The position numbers and the translations under genes are program-made. Shown here piece by piece: positions 13,325 through 20,624 of a stretch of DNA of 20,624 nucleotides; position 1 is the stretch's first letter, and every line of letters starts with the position of its first letter. Source of the DNA: a virus; the IMG/VR virus record IMGVR_UViG_3300008012_000257, positions 1 to 20,624 of that record; one strand, given 5' to 3'. The notes below the pieces were generated by a model. That model had not been told where the DNA came from. It saw only the letters and a program-made list of their open reading frames with translations, and made no database searches.

Positions 13325-15265
13325 CTATTCGATTTCACCCCAGTTATCGCCTAACGCGAAGTCAATCTTAAATGGTACCAAAGCTGGTATGCATGTTTCC
13401 ATAATTTCTTTTATTTTGTTTGCTTGACTTTCGCTCTCTATATTGAAGCACAGTTCATCATGCACTGTGAGCAGGGGAGTGAACCCCTCTTTATAGCAGT
13501 CTACCATCGCACGTTTCATCTGGTCAGCACTCGACCCTTGTATCAACCGGTTGAGAGCCTTGTATGTGTAGGCACGTTTCAGCGATTCTTTCGGGCCATG
13601 CTCACGTCGGGCATCTTCAAACGGCAGCGCACGGTGCAGGCCATAACGCTTCGGCTCCCATTTATCAAAGCGGCATCGTCGGCCAAGCACTGTTCGAACA
13701 ACCCCGTTGGTTTCTGCTGCGCGAGAGACAGCATCCGCTAGTCCTTTTACAAACGGAACCTTAGCGTTGTAGTCGCCTAGCAAGTCTTTAGCTTCGTCCT
13801 TTTCGATATCCAAGACACCAGCCAACTTGTTGATGCCCATGCCATACATAATGCCGAGGTTCACAGTCTTAGCGTCTTTACGAGAAATGCCTGCCATGTC
13901 AGCCACCATCTGGTGAAAGTCTGCGTCATCTTCTTCGTACTTATCAATTACTTCCTGGATCATCGGGTGCCTTTTTGCTCCCGATAACGAGCCAGCATAG
14001 TGCGCCAGCCATCGTGGTTCTTGCGACGCATAGTCAAAGCTGCCCCATTTATTGCCTTCATCAGGGACAAACAATCCTCTAATAGCTTTCTTAATCTGAG
14101 GGTCACGAGCCGGTATCTGCTGTAGATTCGGGTTGGAGGATGAGAACCGACCCGTGACCGTGCCACCATCATCCGAACGGAGGGGGTGGAACTCTGCGTG
14201 AATGCGACCTTTGTGCGAGAACTTAAATATGTTTTCAATAAATGTCGTATTCGCTTTGTTGAACTCTCGCATACGCAATATAGATTGCGCGACTGGGTGC
14301 TCATGGGCTGCAAGAAATTGCTTCGTGAAACTCGGAGCTTCTTTTGCTGTGCGCGGATAGTCGAGGCCAAGCTTGTCGAATGCTTTGGCTAAAGAGGCTG
14401 CTGCCCATGGCTCAACCTGAAACCCAACCATCTCTTCGATCGCCTGATGCAGCTTGTTCTCTTCACTGTTAAGGTAGTCACGAGCTTTCTGAGCTCCTTC
14501 AAGATCTACCTTCACACCGTTCCAGCGCATGTCGAGTAATAGCGGTGTTAAGTCTGTCTCCATCTCAAAGATGCTAGAGACTTCATCGCTTACAAGTTCT
14601 GGCTTCAAGCGGTTCCACAAACGTAATGTGATATCTGCATCTTGTTCTGCATAGCGGCCGACAAAGCGAGAAGGCAAACGCCACATCTCTGCCTTTGGGT
14701 CAAAGCCATAGTCCATAGCAGCGGCGCGGAGTGTCTTCTCACTCTTGCCCTCGCCCAGATAATCAATCGTCAAAGAGTTTAGATTGTACCAGCGACGGTT
14801 CTCGTCCAGCATCGCAGCCGCGGTCATTGTATCATAAACCCTGCCGTTAACTTTGATACCCGCCCAGCGCAACCAGCCCAAATCGTACTGAGCGTTGTGC
14901 ATCACCTTCGGCACATCGGTCTCACAGACTTTCTTAACGAAAGCCATGACAGACTTCTCTGGCATATTGCCACCGCCCTCATGACGAATAGGGAAGTACC
15001 CTGTGAAATCGCCATACGCAATAGCGATACCACAGATAAAACCATCGTTACGAGCCCAGCCAGGCCCCATAGTCATCAGGTTTGGATCAGAAGTTTCTAA
15101 GTCAATTGATATAATCTTGGCTTCTTCGAAGCCCCGTGGAAACCCAGCCGGTGGCGACCAGTCTTGGTCTAGCGCACCGTAGGCAACGTCTTTGATATCA
15201 CTGTCTTTCACATCTTCGAGCTTTTGAAAAAAACCTAGCTGTCCGGTCATACTTGGAAACTCCAT
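13325..15265 (-). CDS. polA: DNA polymerase I family (family A) with 3'-5' exonuclease; Leu at the '762' position
   Basis: This 646-aa replicative polymerase has an intact DnaQ-like proofreading domain. Exo I is D55-L-E57, Exo II is N124-AQY-D128 and Exo III is Y205-AEQ-D209. TGRFSSSNPNLQQIP (371-385) leads into the polymerase core. Motif A is D411-YASQ-E416-P-R418, an unusual variant of DYSQIELR that keeps the metal Asp, Glu and Arg. Motif B is R462-KDAK466-TVN-L470 with Y474-G475, and motif C is VHDE (601-604). The residue matching E. coli Phe762 is Leu470. No 5' nuclease domain is present, as usual in phages. The start could be the Met at 15265 or the sixth codon at 15250, which would give an ATGA overlap with the helicase stop and has GGAG nine bases upstream. 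It copies phage DNA together with the primase and helicases of this operon. Confidence 0.95.
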   Translation of the reverse strand: MEFPSMTGQLGFFQKLEDVKDSDIKDVAYGALDQDWSPPAGFPRGFEEAKIISIDLETSDPNLMTMGPGWARNDGFICGIAIAYGDFTGYFPIRHEGGGNMPEKSVMAFVKKVCETDVPKVMHNAQYDLGWLRWAGIKVNGRVYDTMTAAAMLDENRRWYNLNSLTIDYLGEGKSEKTLRAAAMDYGFDPKAEMWRLPSRFVGRYAEQDADITLRLWNRLKPELVSDEVSSIFEMETDLTPLLLDMRWNGVKVDLEGAQKARDYLNSEENKLHQAIEEMVGFQVEPWAAASLAKAFDKLGLDYPRTAKEAPSFTKQFLAAHEHPVAQSILRMREFNKANTTFIENIFKFSHKGRIHAEFHPLRSDDGGTVTGRFSSSNPNLQQIPARDPQIKKAIRGLFVPDEGNKWGSFDYASQEPRWLAHYAGSLSGAKRHPMIQEVIDKYEEDDADFHQMVADMAGISRKDAKTVNLGIMYGMGINKLAGVLDIEKDEAKDLLGDYNAKVPFVKGLADAVSRAAETNGVVRTVLGRRCRFDKWEPKRYGLHRALPFEDARREHGPKESLKRAYTYKALNRLIQGSSADQMKRAMVDCYKEGFTPLLTVHDELCFNIESESQANKIKEIMETCIPALVPFKIDFALGDNWGEIE

Positions 15266-16776
15266 CTCCCACGACCTTCAATCAGGTGTAGGTTGTGCTT
15301 GGCACGTGTCATGCCCACATAAAAAGTACGCACCTCACTATCCGGATCATTCATCGTCTGGCAAGCGCGAGACGTTTCAAGCATTAAAGCAACGTTGTCT
15401 GCTTCGCCGCCTTTTGCTTTGTGAATGGTGGATAACTTGATACGCGGGTTCTCAGAGTCGAACTTCTCACCAGCCCGAAGCACGGACTGGATATAGATGC
15501 GATCATTATCTGGAATACGGAGAACGTCGAACCACTGCTTGGGTTCGCCGAACAAATCTTCTGTCTGTTCCATAAGCCGTTGGACATCTGACATGGAGAC
15601 AACATCTTCATTAATCATGCTGTCTATGTGCTTGTCGCCCTGACGACGTATGCGCTTTTCAATATCCATAAAAGCCCACATGTTCTTAAACTCATCACGT
15701 CCCAGACTAGAGCCAGTCGTTAATCTTGTCCATCCCCTTGTTGCGTCTATGATTTTTTGCGATACGCTGAACCCGGAGCCTTGTCGGAAGAACAAAAGCC
15801 CCATCTCTTTCATGCGAGAAGCAACCTGATTGGCAATGTAATTTGTCCGGCACAACACCAGCCACTCCCCCTGGGTCAGGTCGAGTTCATCTAAATTAAA
15901 ATGCCAATTAATTGTACCCTTGCGTTCAGTCGGTTTCCACTGCTTGTACACTCGTTTAGCCACACGACTAATCAAGTGACCCGAAACTCGGTGCACGTCA
16001 AAAGGAACACGATAGCTCTGATCCAGCACTGTTGCATTTTTGCAACGCCCCTTGAAGTCTTCGGGGTCTACGCCCATCCACTCGTATATGCATTGGTCAT
16101 CATCGCCAGCATACACGACTTCTCTTGTGTTCTTCGCCAGCTTATCAACCATCTCCCATTGCAACGGGACAAGGTCTTGTGCCTCATCAACAATCAACAG
16201 GTCAAGATCGGGACAATCGCCGCGTTCAACAAAGTCCTCAATCATGTCGGTAAAATCAATCTTACCCAACTCTTCTTTATAGTCTTGAAGACCTCTGTTA
16301 ATTATCTCAAGCTGTCGATAGTCCAGATTGTTGTAGTTGGTTCTGTTAAACTGGTGCCGAGGGGTCACGCGTCTGACACGAGCCATGTTTATAATCGACA
16401 GATACACATCTCCCGGCGCACCCATGCGAAAGAACTCACCGTCATTCATGTTCATGCTTTTTGTAGAACGAAACTCTACGCCAAGTAATTCCTCCAACCG
16501 CTTATAGTCAGCCGAAGCCATAACATCCTTCGTGCTAAGTCTAAGCTGGTGGAATGCCAACGAGTGAAGCGTACGAAAGTAGGGCATCGATTTTATTTCC
16601 AGCCCCAACTCAGAAGCTGCACGAGTACGCGCTTCCTCCGCTGCTTTCTTACTGAACGACACAAACGCGATACGCTGCGGTGCCACACCCTCACGCAGGC
16701 GTTCCTTCACCAGATTGATCAGCGTATATGTTTTACCTGTTCCGGGCGGTCCCAGTATTGCTCTAGGTTCTATCAT
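15247..16776 (-). CDS. UvrD/Rep/PcrA-type superfamily 1 DNA helicase
   Basis: This 509-aa ATP-driven helicase contains all SF1A motifs in order. Walker A is GPPGTGKT (9-16). Motif Ia lies in FVSFSKKAA (38-46). Motif II is DEAQD (197-201). Motif III is GDDDQCIYEWMG (224-235). Motif IV is DQSYRVP (252-258). Motif V is STIHKAKGGEAD (about 443-456) and motif VI is YVGMTRAKHNL (about 485-495). It is shorter than bacterial UvrD (~720 aa), having reduced 1B/2B insertions, which is usual for phage versions. Its ATG overlaps the 74-aa gene's stop (ATGA), and its own TGA falls within the start region of the polymerase, so the three are translationally coupled. It probably unwinds DNA ahead of the polymerase or processes recombination intermediates. 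No DnaB-type replicative helicase is visible in the window. Confidence 0.93.
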   Translation of the reverse strand: MIEPRAILGPPGTGKTYTLINLVKERLREGVAPQRIAFVSFSKKAAEEARTRAASELGLEIKSMPYFRTLHSLAFHQLRLSTKDVMASADYKRLEELLGVEFRSTKSMNMNDGEFFRMGAPGDVYLSIINMARVRRVTPRHQFNRTNYNNLDYRQLEIINRGLQDYKEELGKIDFTDMIEDFVERGDCPDLDLLIVDEAQDLVPLQWEMVDKLAKNTREVVYAGDDDQCIYEWMGVDPEDFKGRCKNATVLDQSYRVPFDVHRVSGHLISRVAKRVYKQWKPTERKGTINWHFNLDELDLTQGEWLVLCRTNYIANQVASRMKEMGLLFFRQGSGFSVSQKIIDATRGWTRLTTGSSLGRDEFKNMWAFMDIEKRIRRQGDKHIDSMINEDVVSMSDVQRLMEQTEDLFGEPKQWFDVLRIPDNDRIYIQSVLRAGEKFDSENPRIKLSTIHKAKGGEADNVALMLETSRACQTMNDPDSEVRTFYVGMTRAKHNLHLIEGRGRWSFQV

Positions 16777-16997
16777 TCTTCTGTATCCGGATGCACAAAC
16801 ACAGGTGTTGTTTCTCCGACATAGGAACCCTGCACGTTATAGTAAAAGTGATCCCATGCATCTTCTTTGGACATGCCTTCAAACTCCATGAAGATTTGCA
16901 CGACATTTTCTGCGTCGTACACAAACACATCTTCGAACCCACAACGTGAGCCAATACCTATGATCGCTTCGTCAAACTGTTCTGGTAGCTTCATCAT
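16773..16997 (-). CDS. Small acidic protein of unknown function (74 aa) between primase and helicase
   Basis: The product (MMKLPEQFDEAIIGIGSRCG...) is acidic with aromatic residues and no recognised domain. The first ATG (16997) overlaps the primase TGA by one base and lies ten bases after a consensus AGGAGG at 17013-17008 within the primase coding sequence, so this start is preferred over the second Met. Its TGA overlaps the helicase ATG as ATGA. This tight coupling on both sides supports a real gene whose product is made in step with primase and helicase. A partner or regulator of one of them is possible. The function is unknown. Confidence 0.72.
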   Translation of the reverse strand: MMKLPEQFDEAIIGIGSRCGFEDVFVYDAENVVQIFMEFEGMSKEDAWDHFYYNVQGSYVGETTPVFVHPDTEE

Positions 16998-18523
16998 CAG
17001 AAGGGTACCTCCTCTCCACGTACATCGGGTTGCGGTATGTCCGGTTCCGCGCCAAACTCTGGTATCGACCAGACACGAATAACTTTGGACTTGCCTTTGG
17101 TGTCGGCAAAGCGGCGAGACTCACTCGCACTCTTACCGCTGTTCAATTCCTTCAGCCGCTCCTGTATCTGACCACGGGTGTACGCGTTAAAGTTCTTGGC
17201 GCGTAGGAACTCCATGAAGGAGTCGAGACGGAAGTATGTGCGACCCTCTTCTGTCCACGGCTTGCCCAACATAAGTTCTTCAGCCGACTGTGCTTGCACA
17301 CGGCCGTTGCAGAAACCTTCGAGCATGTCCACAAACTGGCCTTTGTAGGTTAGTTCTTCCGGCACCTCGATCACAACCATCTGCTGCATCAAACCATTGA
17401 CAGCCATCTCCCAGTCACTCTTCTTGATTTCGGGGGGCATGAAGTTTAGCTGCTCCATGCAGGCACGTTGGAACCGTTGGAACATCTGCAACTCTTCGGT
17501 GCTAACCTCAATACGTCCGCCGTTCACGTCAACAAACCAGACGCGTGGATCGGCCTCGACAACCGAGAGACCCGTGACTTCGACAGACGAGCCGCCGCCA
17601 ATACCAAACTCACAACGCCGACACGCTGCCTTATCGCAGTGGTCTTTGAACGGTGACTGGTTGCACATGTAGAAGTATTCTTTGCGGTCAATGGACTGCT
17701 GTATTGATACAACCTCCGACGCAGACAGGGGTGGGTTGCAGTATGATTGGTTGTCTTTTTCTAGCTGCTGCTGCCATCCTGTTGGATCTTGCTGCTTGCG
17801 ATAGATAGCCATCTGCGTCATAGCGAGGTTTCGTTCGCCAGAACCGAAAGACTTCATTGCGAGTATGAGTAGGCACGGCGGTGCGCCGGGCAGGTCGGTG
17901 GTGCTGTCGGCCAACTCGATAGATAAAAATTTGTTAGGTGTTACGGCAATCTTTTCAGCTTTGTCGAGAAACTCTTCCAGAGAAAGCTCATTACCCTTCG
18001 CGTCAAGCGCAGGGCGAGTCGTAAGATCAGCGTCAAAATACGGAAGGTTGATGAAGTTACCGACATCGCCACGCTCAACAAGAAGCTGCTCTTGCTTCGG
18101 AAAGATTTCACTGCCGCCATGTCCCAGTATGGCTGCAACCTCTGATAGCTTGTCGCGCATATCCGCCGCAGGAACCCAACCTTTGACAAAGAAATATATG
18201 TGAGCTCCACCAGACTTACTACGGCAAACAACAGCAGGAAGCTTAAGAGAAGCGCACTGCCGAGCAATAGCGTTAAGATCGAGTGGATAAACGTCCACAT
18301 CAATAACGCCGAAACGACAATCATTTCTTTCGGTGATAGGGATAGATCCGACACCCTGCTCTCCGTCCAAGTGCTTCTGTACTAAGGCCTCTGTAAGTGG
18401 CTCTCTGATTATACGCGATTTGGCCTCTTGTTTGCCACCGCGCCGAGAATCCGAAATTGTTGTCTGTCCATGTGCTGCACCGAAACCTTCAAATACAGCC
18501 ATGAACCTTTTGGTAGTGTCCAT
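16997..18523 (-). CDS. Archaeo-eukaryotic-type primase (TOTE/phage AEP) with PriCT-like and Cys-rich segments
   Basis: This 508-aa primase or primase-polymerase has an N-terminal AEP catalytic core. The metal-binding motif is D75-V-D77 (FGVIDVDVYP). The second motif is SKSGGAH108IYFF, and GNFINLPYFD (155-164) closes the core. FGSGERNLAMTQMA through PPLSASEVVSIQQS (about 226-277) resembles a PriCT-type helical domain. A Cys/His cluster follows (C287, H295, C296, C301, C304) that could bind zinc. The C-terminal ~200 residues hold a winged-helix-like block (TEEGRTYFRLDSFMEFLRA) and end in an acidic GEEVPF tip. It lacks a fused helicase domain, so unwinding must come from separate proteins. GAGGG lies five bases before the ATG, directly downstream of an intrinsic terminator. 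It makes primers for the PolA encoded two genes on. The family is sure at AEP level. Confidence 0.87.
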   Translation of the reverse strand: MDTTKRFMAVFEGFGAAHGQTTISDSRRGGKQEAKSRIIREPLTEALVQKHLDGEQGVGSIPITERNDCRFGVIDVDVYPLDLNAIARQCASLKLPAVVCRSKSGGAHIYFFVKGWVPAADMRDKLSEVAAILGHGGSEIFPKQEQLLVERGDVGNFINLPYFDADLTTRPALDAKGNELSLEEFLDKAEKIAVTPNKFLSIELADSTTDLPGAPPCLLILAMKSFGSGERNLAMTQMAIYRKQQDPTGWQQQLEKDNQSYCNPPLSASEVVSIQQSIDRKEYFYMCNQSPFKDHCDKAACRRCEFGIGGGSSVEVTGLSVVEADPRVWFVDVNGGRIEVSTEELQMFQRFQRACMEQLNFMPPEIKKSDWEMAVNGLMQQMVVIEVPEELTYKGQFVDMLEGFCNGRVQAQSAEELMLGKPWTEEGRTYFRLDSFMEFLRAKNFNAYTRGQIQERLKELNSGKSASESRRFADTKGKSKVIRVWSIPEFGAEPDIPQPDVRGEEVPF

Positions 18524-18587: not shown

Positions 18588-19391
18588 CTAGAACGGCAGG
18601 TCGTCAGACTCAATAGTCTTAACTGCCGTTTCTAAATCTGGATCTTGTGCTGCCTTAACTTCACCGGCGGTGACCATTCTGGCAAAGTCCTTCGCCTTTT
18701 CGTACAAGGCAGGGTCTTCCACAAATCCAGCTTTGCCGACAATCTTCCAAGACTGCCAGCTACCCATGTCATTAGACCGCTCATCCGTTGACATGTTCCA
18801 TACGATGCCGAAGGACGGAACCTTGAAGGACTTGTCACCCTTCTTAATTTCCTGCATCGCAATCATTGTGTTCCATTGACGGGACACTTTGAGGTTCGAG
18901 GATTTCATATCCAAGATAGCGGTTTGCCAACTGCCGCTTGTCGGATCTTGGATCATGACGTAGTGCTGTGCGGACACAACGAGCTCGTTGCCGTTTGGCA
19001 TCATCTCTTTGTTTCCTTCACGTTTCGCATTCAACACGCTTGGATCGTTCGGTGACAGTTCACCATGGAACCCGCCGCCTTCATCGTATGGAGTAAACTC
19101 CAAATACTTTTTAACGAAACCACACGCGATGATGTTCACACCGTCTTCGGCCTTCCACACCTGGCGAGTGACAGTATTGAATATGTCACCTTGCTCGGCA
19201 CCCTCAATATACTTTTCGTTCTTCTTTTTAAGTTCCGGCGACACCGGTTGAAGAACGCGCAAGAACGGGATTTGCAAATCATCTTGCGTAAAGTTTTCGG
19301 TACCTGCGCCAGCATCCTCTAGGAAGGTATCCAGCATTGCGGCTGGAAGCTGCGCTTCTGCTTTTTTAGTTACTGCTTTAGTTTCACTCAT
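18588..19391 (-). CDS. Putative phage single-stranded DNA-binding protein with SSB-type acidic tip
   Basis: This 267-aa protein matches no classical domain by eye. It belongs to a type seen next to phage replication genes, with IPFLRVLQPVSPEL (41-54) and GDIFNTVT (68-75). The core (about 40-235) alternates beta-type hydrophobic segments (NIIACGFVKKYLEF, FGIVWNM, WQSWKIVGKAGF). The last seven residues are ESDDLPF, closely matching the DDDIPF tip by which bacterial SSBs and phage SSB analogues recruit partner proteins. With the strong terminator right behind it and the operon start two genes upstream, it would be made in large amounts, as expected for an SSB. The start codon is fixed by the 8-base gap to the upstream stop; its RBS is weak. 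The SSB role is an inference from tip, position and expression layout. Confidence 0.68.
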   Translation of the reverse strand: MSETKAVTKKAEAQLPAAMLDTFLEDAGAGTENFTQDDLQIPFLRVLQPVSPELKKKNEKYIEGAEQGDIFNTVTRQVWKAEDGVNIIACGFVKKYLEFTPYDEGGGFHGELSPNDPSVLNAKREGNKEMMPNGNELVVSAQHYVMIQDPTSGSWQTAILDMKSSNLKVSRQWNTMIAMQEIKKGDKSFKVPSFGIVWNMSTDERSNDMGSWQSWKIVGKAGFVEDPALYEKAKDFARMVTAGEVKAAQDPDLETAVKTIESDDLPF

Positions 19392-19960: not shown

Positions 19961-20095
19961 TTGGCTTCCTTTCTACTCTCTACTTCTCCGTTTATAGCCC
20001 GTCGGCTTTGATGTAGACAGTTCGTCCCAGCTTTTTGGGAGTTAGAGGGAGGGTTCCTATCGCTGGCGGTGATAAGTGATCTATCGATCGCACCG

Positions 20096-20124
20096 TTGAC
20101 GAACCATCTACTATGTCCTATATA
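20096..20124 (+). promoter_or_regulatory. Sigma70-type promoter for the rightward helicase operon
   Basis: TTGACG at 20096-20101 (5/6 to consensus), a 17-base spacer, and TATATA at 20119-20124 (4/6). The predicted start is near 20131, about 37 bases before the SNF2-like gene's ATG. The -10 is shared with the leftward promoter. Confidence 0.65.
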
Positions 20125-20147
20125 AGTTGGGATAACTTAAACGTCAA
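20119..20147 (-). promoter_or_regulatory. Sigma70-type promoter for the leftward replication operon, sharing the same -10
   Basis: On the minus strand, TTGACG (20147-20142), a 17-base spacer, and TATATA (20124-20119). This is the exact mirror of the rightward promoter. The predicted start is near 20112, giving a ~150-base leader before the 186-aa gene. Confidence 0.62.
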
Positions 20148-20168
20148 CCCCTAATCGGATCTATACAC

Positions 20169-20624
20169 ATGTATGAATACAAGACAGAACCATACGACCA
20201 TCAGCGTGATGCGTTCGAAGCCAGCAAAGACAATCTAAACTACGCCTACTTTATGGAGATGGGCTGCGGTAAATCCAAAGTCCTCATTGATAACATGGCA
20301 TACCTATACGAGAATGGTGAAATCGACACCGCCGTTATCGTGGCACCGAAGGGCGTATACCGGAACTGGGTGCTGAAAGAGATACCCATCCATCTGCCAG
20401 AACGAATCGATCACCGTGTATTTACTTGGAGGGCATCGCCAAACAAGGCGCAGAAGAAAGAGTTGGAAGAGGCCACCATCATCGGTGGGCATGACGGGCT
20501 CCGCATCTTGGTTGTAAATGTAGAAGCATTCGCTACCGAAAAGGTCATGCGGTATCTTAGGACATTCCTAAAAGATAGTTACTTTCTCTTGGCGGTAGAT
20601 GAGAGCACTACCATCAAGAATCCC
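20169..20624 (+). CDS. SNF2-like superfamily 2 DNA helicase/translocase, N-terminal part (3' partial)
   Basis: The frame is open from ATG 20169 to the window end (152 codons). It starts MYEYKTEPYDHQRDAFEAS, where the PYDHQ segment is the Q-motif-like adenine contact. Motif I follows as MEMGCGKSK (a GxGKS/T P-loop, with Cys-Gly where SNF2 proteins have Leu-Gly). Motif Ia is VIVAPKGVYRNW, the following part has ILVVNVEAF, and motif II is AVDESTTIKNP, the DE-S/A-xx-IKNP signature typical of SNF2 rather than DEAD-box proteins. It would use ATP to move along or remodel DNA in early infection. No strong Shine-Dalgarno is present (only CGGA about ten bases upstream). It is the first gene of the rightward operon driven from the shared promoter. 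The C-terminal RecA lobe lies beyond the window. Confidence 0.88.
   Translation, partial: MYEYKTEPYDHQRDAFEASKDNLNYAYFMEMGCGKSKVLIDNMAYLYENGEIDTAVIVAPKGVYRNWVLKEIPIHLPERIDHRVFTWRASPNKAQKKELEEATIIGGHDGLRILVVNVEAFATEKVMRYLRTFLKDSYFLLAVDESTTIKNP

Follow-up and report, generated by a model that had tools for sequence, protein, structure and literature searches.

The locus examined here raises the question of what a perfectly mirrored sequence is doing between two divergent phage genes, and whether its symmetry is the property that has been conserved. The window, that is, the whole stretch of DNA that was analysed, is an entire virus record of 20,624 bases, and its source phage was probably marine. 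The genes flanking the mirrored sequence diverge, a 186-aa ORF reading from 19960 on the minus strand and a helicase ORF from 20169 on the plus strand:

20169 to 20624, plus strand: SF2 DNA helicase gene, running off the window (phrog_62, E=1e-20; tblastn to annotated phage helicases).
19400 to 19960, minus strand: first gene of the leftward operon, DUF7307 / Pam3 gp33-like, 186 aa (Pfam PF23984, E=3.7e-29).
18588 to 19391, minus strand: Pam3 gp34-like gene, 267 aa (Pfam PF23977, E=1e-68).
16997 to 18523, minus strand: primase (archaeo-eukaryotic primase domain), 508 aa.
15247 to 16776, minus strand: UvrD-like helicase, 509 aa.
13325 to 15265, minus strand: family A DNA polymerase with a 3'-5' exonuclease domain, 646 aa.

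Between the primase and the UvrD-like helicase lies a 74-aa gene (16773-16997, minus strand) belonging to phrog_13182, of unknown function. In DSL-LC04 a small gene in this position is called "RNA polymerase sigma-G factor", and another record has "DNA-directed RNA polymerase" there, labels that are probably annotation noise. Among annotated phages, 023Pt_psg01 (53%) and Pelagibacter phage HTVC027P (46%) come nearest by helicase; their records start and finish near the same junction. A blastn search of the promoter region against phage records gave no match.

The mirrored element consists of GTTGACG (20095-20101), TATATA (20119-20124) and CGTCAAC (20142-20148), which share a common centre at 20121.5. 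The coordinates given by the sequence-only reading are exact: the dyad TTGACG-17-TATATA-17-CGTCAA spans 20096-20147, and each strand reads TTGACG-17-TATATA, so that a single -10 is legible both ways. The parts, with the start sites they would imply, are as follows:

20096 to 20101, plus strand: -35 element of the rightward (helicase) promoter, TTGACG, in the GTTGACG arm; its TTGAC is kept at 8/8 close-clade junctions.
20119 to 20124, no strand: palindromic TATATA, the -10 common to both promoters, 17 bp from each -35.
20142 to 20147, minus strand: -35 element of the leftward (replication operon) promoter, TTGACG on the minus strand, in the CGTCAAC arm; its GTCAA is kept at 8/8 close-clade junctions.
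20131 to 20132, plus strand: predicted rightward transcription start, 7 nt past the -10, placed from the -10 position.
20112, minus strand: predicted start of leftward transcription, 19 positions away from its rightward counterpart, likewise placed from the -10 position.

Read in either direction, the window shows the features by which we defined a sigma70-type promoter, namely a TTGACA-like -35, a spacer of 16-18 bp and TA at -12/-11. What it does not have is a T at -7, since TATATA places an A there in both directions; this T is needed in most phyla, though not in Alphaproteobacteria. A stock sigma70 promoter scan of the window did not report the site; because such a scan demands T at -7, we do not regard its silence as counter-evidence. 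Both -35s carry five of the six consensus bases at the optimal 17-bp spacer, from which initiation would probably be strong and about equal each way. Most probably, the element is an overlapping divergent pair of promoters for the housekeeping sigma70 of the host, here perfectly mirrored on one -10.

This reading draws its main support from the homologous junctions of related phages. Scans of IMG/VR together with annotated phages yielded 113 divergent junctions, which reduced to 36 non-redundant ones. TTGAC stands upstream of GTCAA at a distance of 25-75 bp in 27 of these 36, against 0.39 expected from dinucleotide shuffles, and the pair is present at all eight junctions of the close clade. 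The -10 distances are equally constant. Every rightward promoter of the paired set has TA at -12/-11 exactly 17 bp from TTGAC (27/27), while on the leftward side the distance is 17 bp for 8/9 promoters in the close set, the exception (psg01) fitting at 16 bp, and 18 bp for 18/18 in the distant set. Other spacings between -35 and TA never exceeded 6/9 in the close set or 5/18 in the distant one; the -10 search behind these counts used a hand-made score, and the related sequences are not fully independent.

An alignment of the window with L005 and L009 has GTTGAC, CCTATATAAG and GTCAAC as its main invariant blocks, and between the window and L009 these blocks are kept while the spacers are only about half identical. 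L009, with about 66% helicase identity, reads TTGACA-17-TATATA-17-TGTCAA. In the distant clade the leftward -35 falls within the start of the helicase gene (ATGxxxGTCAAx), and the valine codon bearing GTCAA is GTC in 37/37 sequences, a count that overstates independence given that these sequences are related, compared with 27% among valine codons at the same loci. Such a bias fits selection at the level of the DNA, not of the protein. Two other lineages (L115 and L156) also have GTCAA at the start codon, in a different reading frame.

Both promoters being conserved in relatives, the claim of two opposed sigma70-type promoters sharing one -10 in the window, directed toward a replication operon and a helicase gene, is supported. 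The alignment of related phages that had been suggested as a check bears it out in part: most relatives keep both -35s and their -10 distances, but some distant ones have a lost or degraded -35. The rightward -35 is weak in L115, L133, L156 and L158, and the TTGAC...GTCAA pair is missing from L149, HTVC023P, L165 and L195. In HTVC027P a gene is inserted and the promoters are separate.

The geometry of the pair falls into three registers, or classes. In register (a), found in the window, L005 and L009, the outer span is 52 bp, TATATA is shared and the predicted starts lie 19 apart. In register (b) (L006, L007, L008, L010, L014 and psg01) the outer span is 36-37 bp, the predicted starts are 33-35 apart and the -10 of each promoter adjoins the -35 of the other. 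Register (c), seen in most of the distant clade, has an outer span of 60-62 bp and predicted starts 8-12 apart. The shared -10 is kept in L001-L005 and L009; elsewhere the registers are compact or wide, without a shared -10. In a tree of the 186-aa protein, in which the long branches of HTVC027P, psg01, L165, HTVC023P and L195 are unsurely placed, the window, L005 and L009 form a group (support 99/98) nested in a clade (99/99) in which the remaining close members show the compact register. The mirrored shared -10 thus looks to have arisen once within this set, as a derived state. The idea of a perfect mirror with a shared -10 as a conserved design does not hold, this being the derived register of one small clade among compact, non-shared arrangements. 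What the alignments indicate as the conserved property is instead a pair of strong, mutually exclusive promoters, of which mirror symmetry would be one derived register.

The pattern TTGAC-N18-TATA occurs two to three times per record in those 37-57 kb relatives that have matches, with at least one match always at the junction. Two class (c) relatives lack it, because their -10s misfit the pattern at that spacing. These occurrences support the junction as a principal host-type promoter site, though not necessarily the sole one. A second promoter-like site (TTGACC...CTATA or similar) was seen once per genome in three larger relatives, on the helicase strand and far from the junction (G001:C1:38651-38677, G002:C1:43050-43076 and G003:C1:36176-36202).

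Assuming that the pair works as its layout implies, polymerase bound in one orientation would transcribe the replication operon leftward from about 20112, and polymerase bound in the other would start at about 20131 and read rightward into the helicase gene. With almost complete overlap of the two footprints, only one orientation would be occupied at a time. Since the footprints overlap in all three registers, simultaneous two-way occupancy is physically unlikely throughout. We infer promoter activity, start sites, use of the host sigma70 and mutual exclusion from motifs and their spacing. It is conceivable, and we propose this only tentatively, that the lineage has kept a strong, mutually exclusive promoter pair over deep divergence, splitting early transcription between the replication operon and the helicase gene, in three overlapping registers of which the mirror form is allowed by a host sigma with no need of T at -7.

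That such competition would serve regulation, as a switch, and not simply follow from compact packing, is speculative. These could be ordinary divergent early promoters that overlap in a short gap, the mirror and the exclusion having no regulatory role, and we give this explanation an even chance. It competes with the switch step only and leaves the promoter pair itself untouched. In its favour, the register varies between clades (outer spans of 36, 52 and 60-62 bp) while each promoter is kept, the intergenic gap of the distant clade is only about 82-100 bp, which would force overlap, and E. coli bidirectional promoters compete weakly at basal activity (PMC12825309). The close clade, however, has a gap of about 200 bp and a leftward leader of about 150 nt, room enough to separate the promoters, and they overlap at 8/8 junctions, which leans mildly against packing. 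Moreover, the extra DNA found in L009, L127, L139, L146 and psg01 never splits the pair but sits between it and the leftward gene. Taken together, we regard packing without regulatory purpose and purposeful competition as about equally likely. The insertion in L009 includes an additional small gene, whose product has an apparent signal peptide, between the intact promoter pair and the 186-aa gene.

The dyad might instead serve as the operator of a dimeric regulator, repressor or activator, its likeness to promoters being secondary. Perfect 7-bp arms flanking a palindrome are what such a site would look like, and TAAGTT-N5-AACTTA at 20123-20139 forms a further inverted repeat. A dimer would require half-sites at a fixed spacing, however, whereas in relatives the outer span of the arms goes from 52 to 36 to 60-62 bp with the arms and the -35/-10 distances persisting. 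The arms also match the sigma70 -35 and stand at the correct distance from the -10. We therefore consider an operator improbable, and the alternative raised by the sequence-only reading is disfavoured because the distance between the arms shifts by 9-16 bp in relatives that preserve each -35/-10 spacing. The TAAGTT/AACTTA repeat, which we considered as an operator in its own right, was dropped, being broken in L002 and L005.

As for chance, TTGACG-N15..19-TATATA occurs exactly twice in the window, both times at the dyad, and in none of 100 dinucleotide shuffles, while TTGAC-N42-GTCAA is found once against 0.04 expected per window. A search for TTGAC-18-TATATA-18-GTCAA over 2.9 million viral contigs returned 14 matches, six of them from the window's clade. 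Judged on the single sequence, the dyad is only modestly improbable by chance; it is the conservation among relatives that puts it well beyond. A one-direction promoter with an accidental mirror image is a very remote prospect: about 38% of shuffled versions of the intergenic region do contain a 7-bp inverted repeat (1.6% one centred on a 6-bp palindrome) and the mirrored pattern shows no general enrichment in viral contigs, its eight matches outside the clade equalling the eight of an inverted control, but divergent relatives retain the two -35s and the two -10 distances far more often than expected. Two unrelated mirrored matches (L267 and L272) lie in divergent gaps, compared with none of the control matches. 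The one in L272 (4032-4083), an unrelated virus contig, is fully mirrored (TTGACA-17-TATATA-17-TGTCAA) and stands between a ribbon-helix-helix-like short ORF followed by a DnaB-like helicase, and a divergent 428-aa gene (names assigned by eye).

Downstream of the leftward start, the transcript would begin with a leader containing a conserved hairpin:

19961 to 20112, minus strand: predicted leader, some 150 nt long, at the 5' end of the leftward RNA.
19996 to 20007, minus strand: conserved hairpin AGCCGACGGGCT / AGCCGNCGGGCTNTAA in the leftward leader.

The hairpin AGCCGNCGGGCTNTAA is present once per genome in close relatives and three times in tandem, at 24-nt intervals, in L009 (1912-1975, minus strand), and L014 has a compensatory change in it (AGCT/AGCT). 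Rfam gave no match in the window or in ten relatives, the hairpin included. It could be an RNA operator or a processing site for the replication operon.

The A at -7 bears on the question of the host. Sigma70 promoters of alphaproteobacteria commonly lack T at -7: in three of the alphaproteobacteria examined, -10 elements without it account for over 60% of the sigma70 set, and in a fourth for over 80% (PMC8407463). TATATA would therefore be acceptable as a -10 in these bacteria, and the A at -7 is consistent with an alphaproteobacterial host without being proof of one; for E. coli-like hosts it would be unfavourable. The nearest cultured relatives infect Pelagibacter, and the sole yield of a host search of genome contigs was a phage-like contig in a Gammaproteobacteria MAG. 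This 61-kb contig (L262, NYWC01000010.1), with a near-identical phage region, is filed under Gammaproteobacteria bacterium CPC27, and its placement may be either a binning accident or a host clue.

Bacterial bidirectional promoters with a shared symmetric -10 are already known from the work of Warman, Grainger and colleagues (PMC12825309, PMC10268837). Like them, the phage element has opposed sigma70 promoters on one -10, lies between divergent genes, a location common but not required in that class, and would bind polymerase one way at a time. The class is defined by starts on opposite strands 7-25 bp apart, and the predicted phage starts, 19 positions apart, adjoin its commonest, 18-bp group. 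Retention of the shared -10 in relatives is not part of the definition. The differences lie elsewhere. Five E. coli bidirectional promoters tested had low basal activity, and natural ones compete only above an activity threshold, competition being created by improving a -35 (PMC12825309). The phage -35s, by contrast, are both near consensus at 17 bp, which would be predicted to place the element in the competitive range. Furthermore, the phage shares the whole 6-bp palindrome TATATA, whereas an 18-bp start separation implies, by our deduction, sharing of A-11/T-7; a six-base palindrome may be easier to share in hosts tolerating the absence of T at -7. Finally, the element is phage-borne, and its relatives move among three registers with both promoters kept.

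Two other systems are partly comparable. The alphaproteobacterial sigma70 promoters (PMC8407463) have the same TTG-type -35, 17-bp spacer, TA at -12/-11 and no T at -7, but are not described as bidirectional. Pseudomonas phage YuA (NC_010116) has an annotated -35/-10 promoter with reported activity upstream of the homologous helicase gp02; there, however, the upstream gp01 is co-oriented with the helicase and the record annotates a single direction. For phage bidirectional promoters, no close precedent was found among the papers covered by a literature search.

Bidirectional promoters being newly recognised in bacteria, a naturally strong, symmetrical and conserved case would offer a clean test of polymerase mutual exclusion as regulation. 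The phage series also provides natural variants of one junction in three registers that can be compared directly, and it suggests a reason why perfectly palindromic shared -10s can be carried where the host's -10 has no T at -7. Set beside the known systems, what is new here is an apparently strong, phage-borne and lineage-conserved variant of the known bidirectional promoter.
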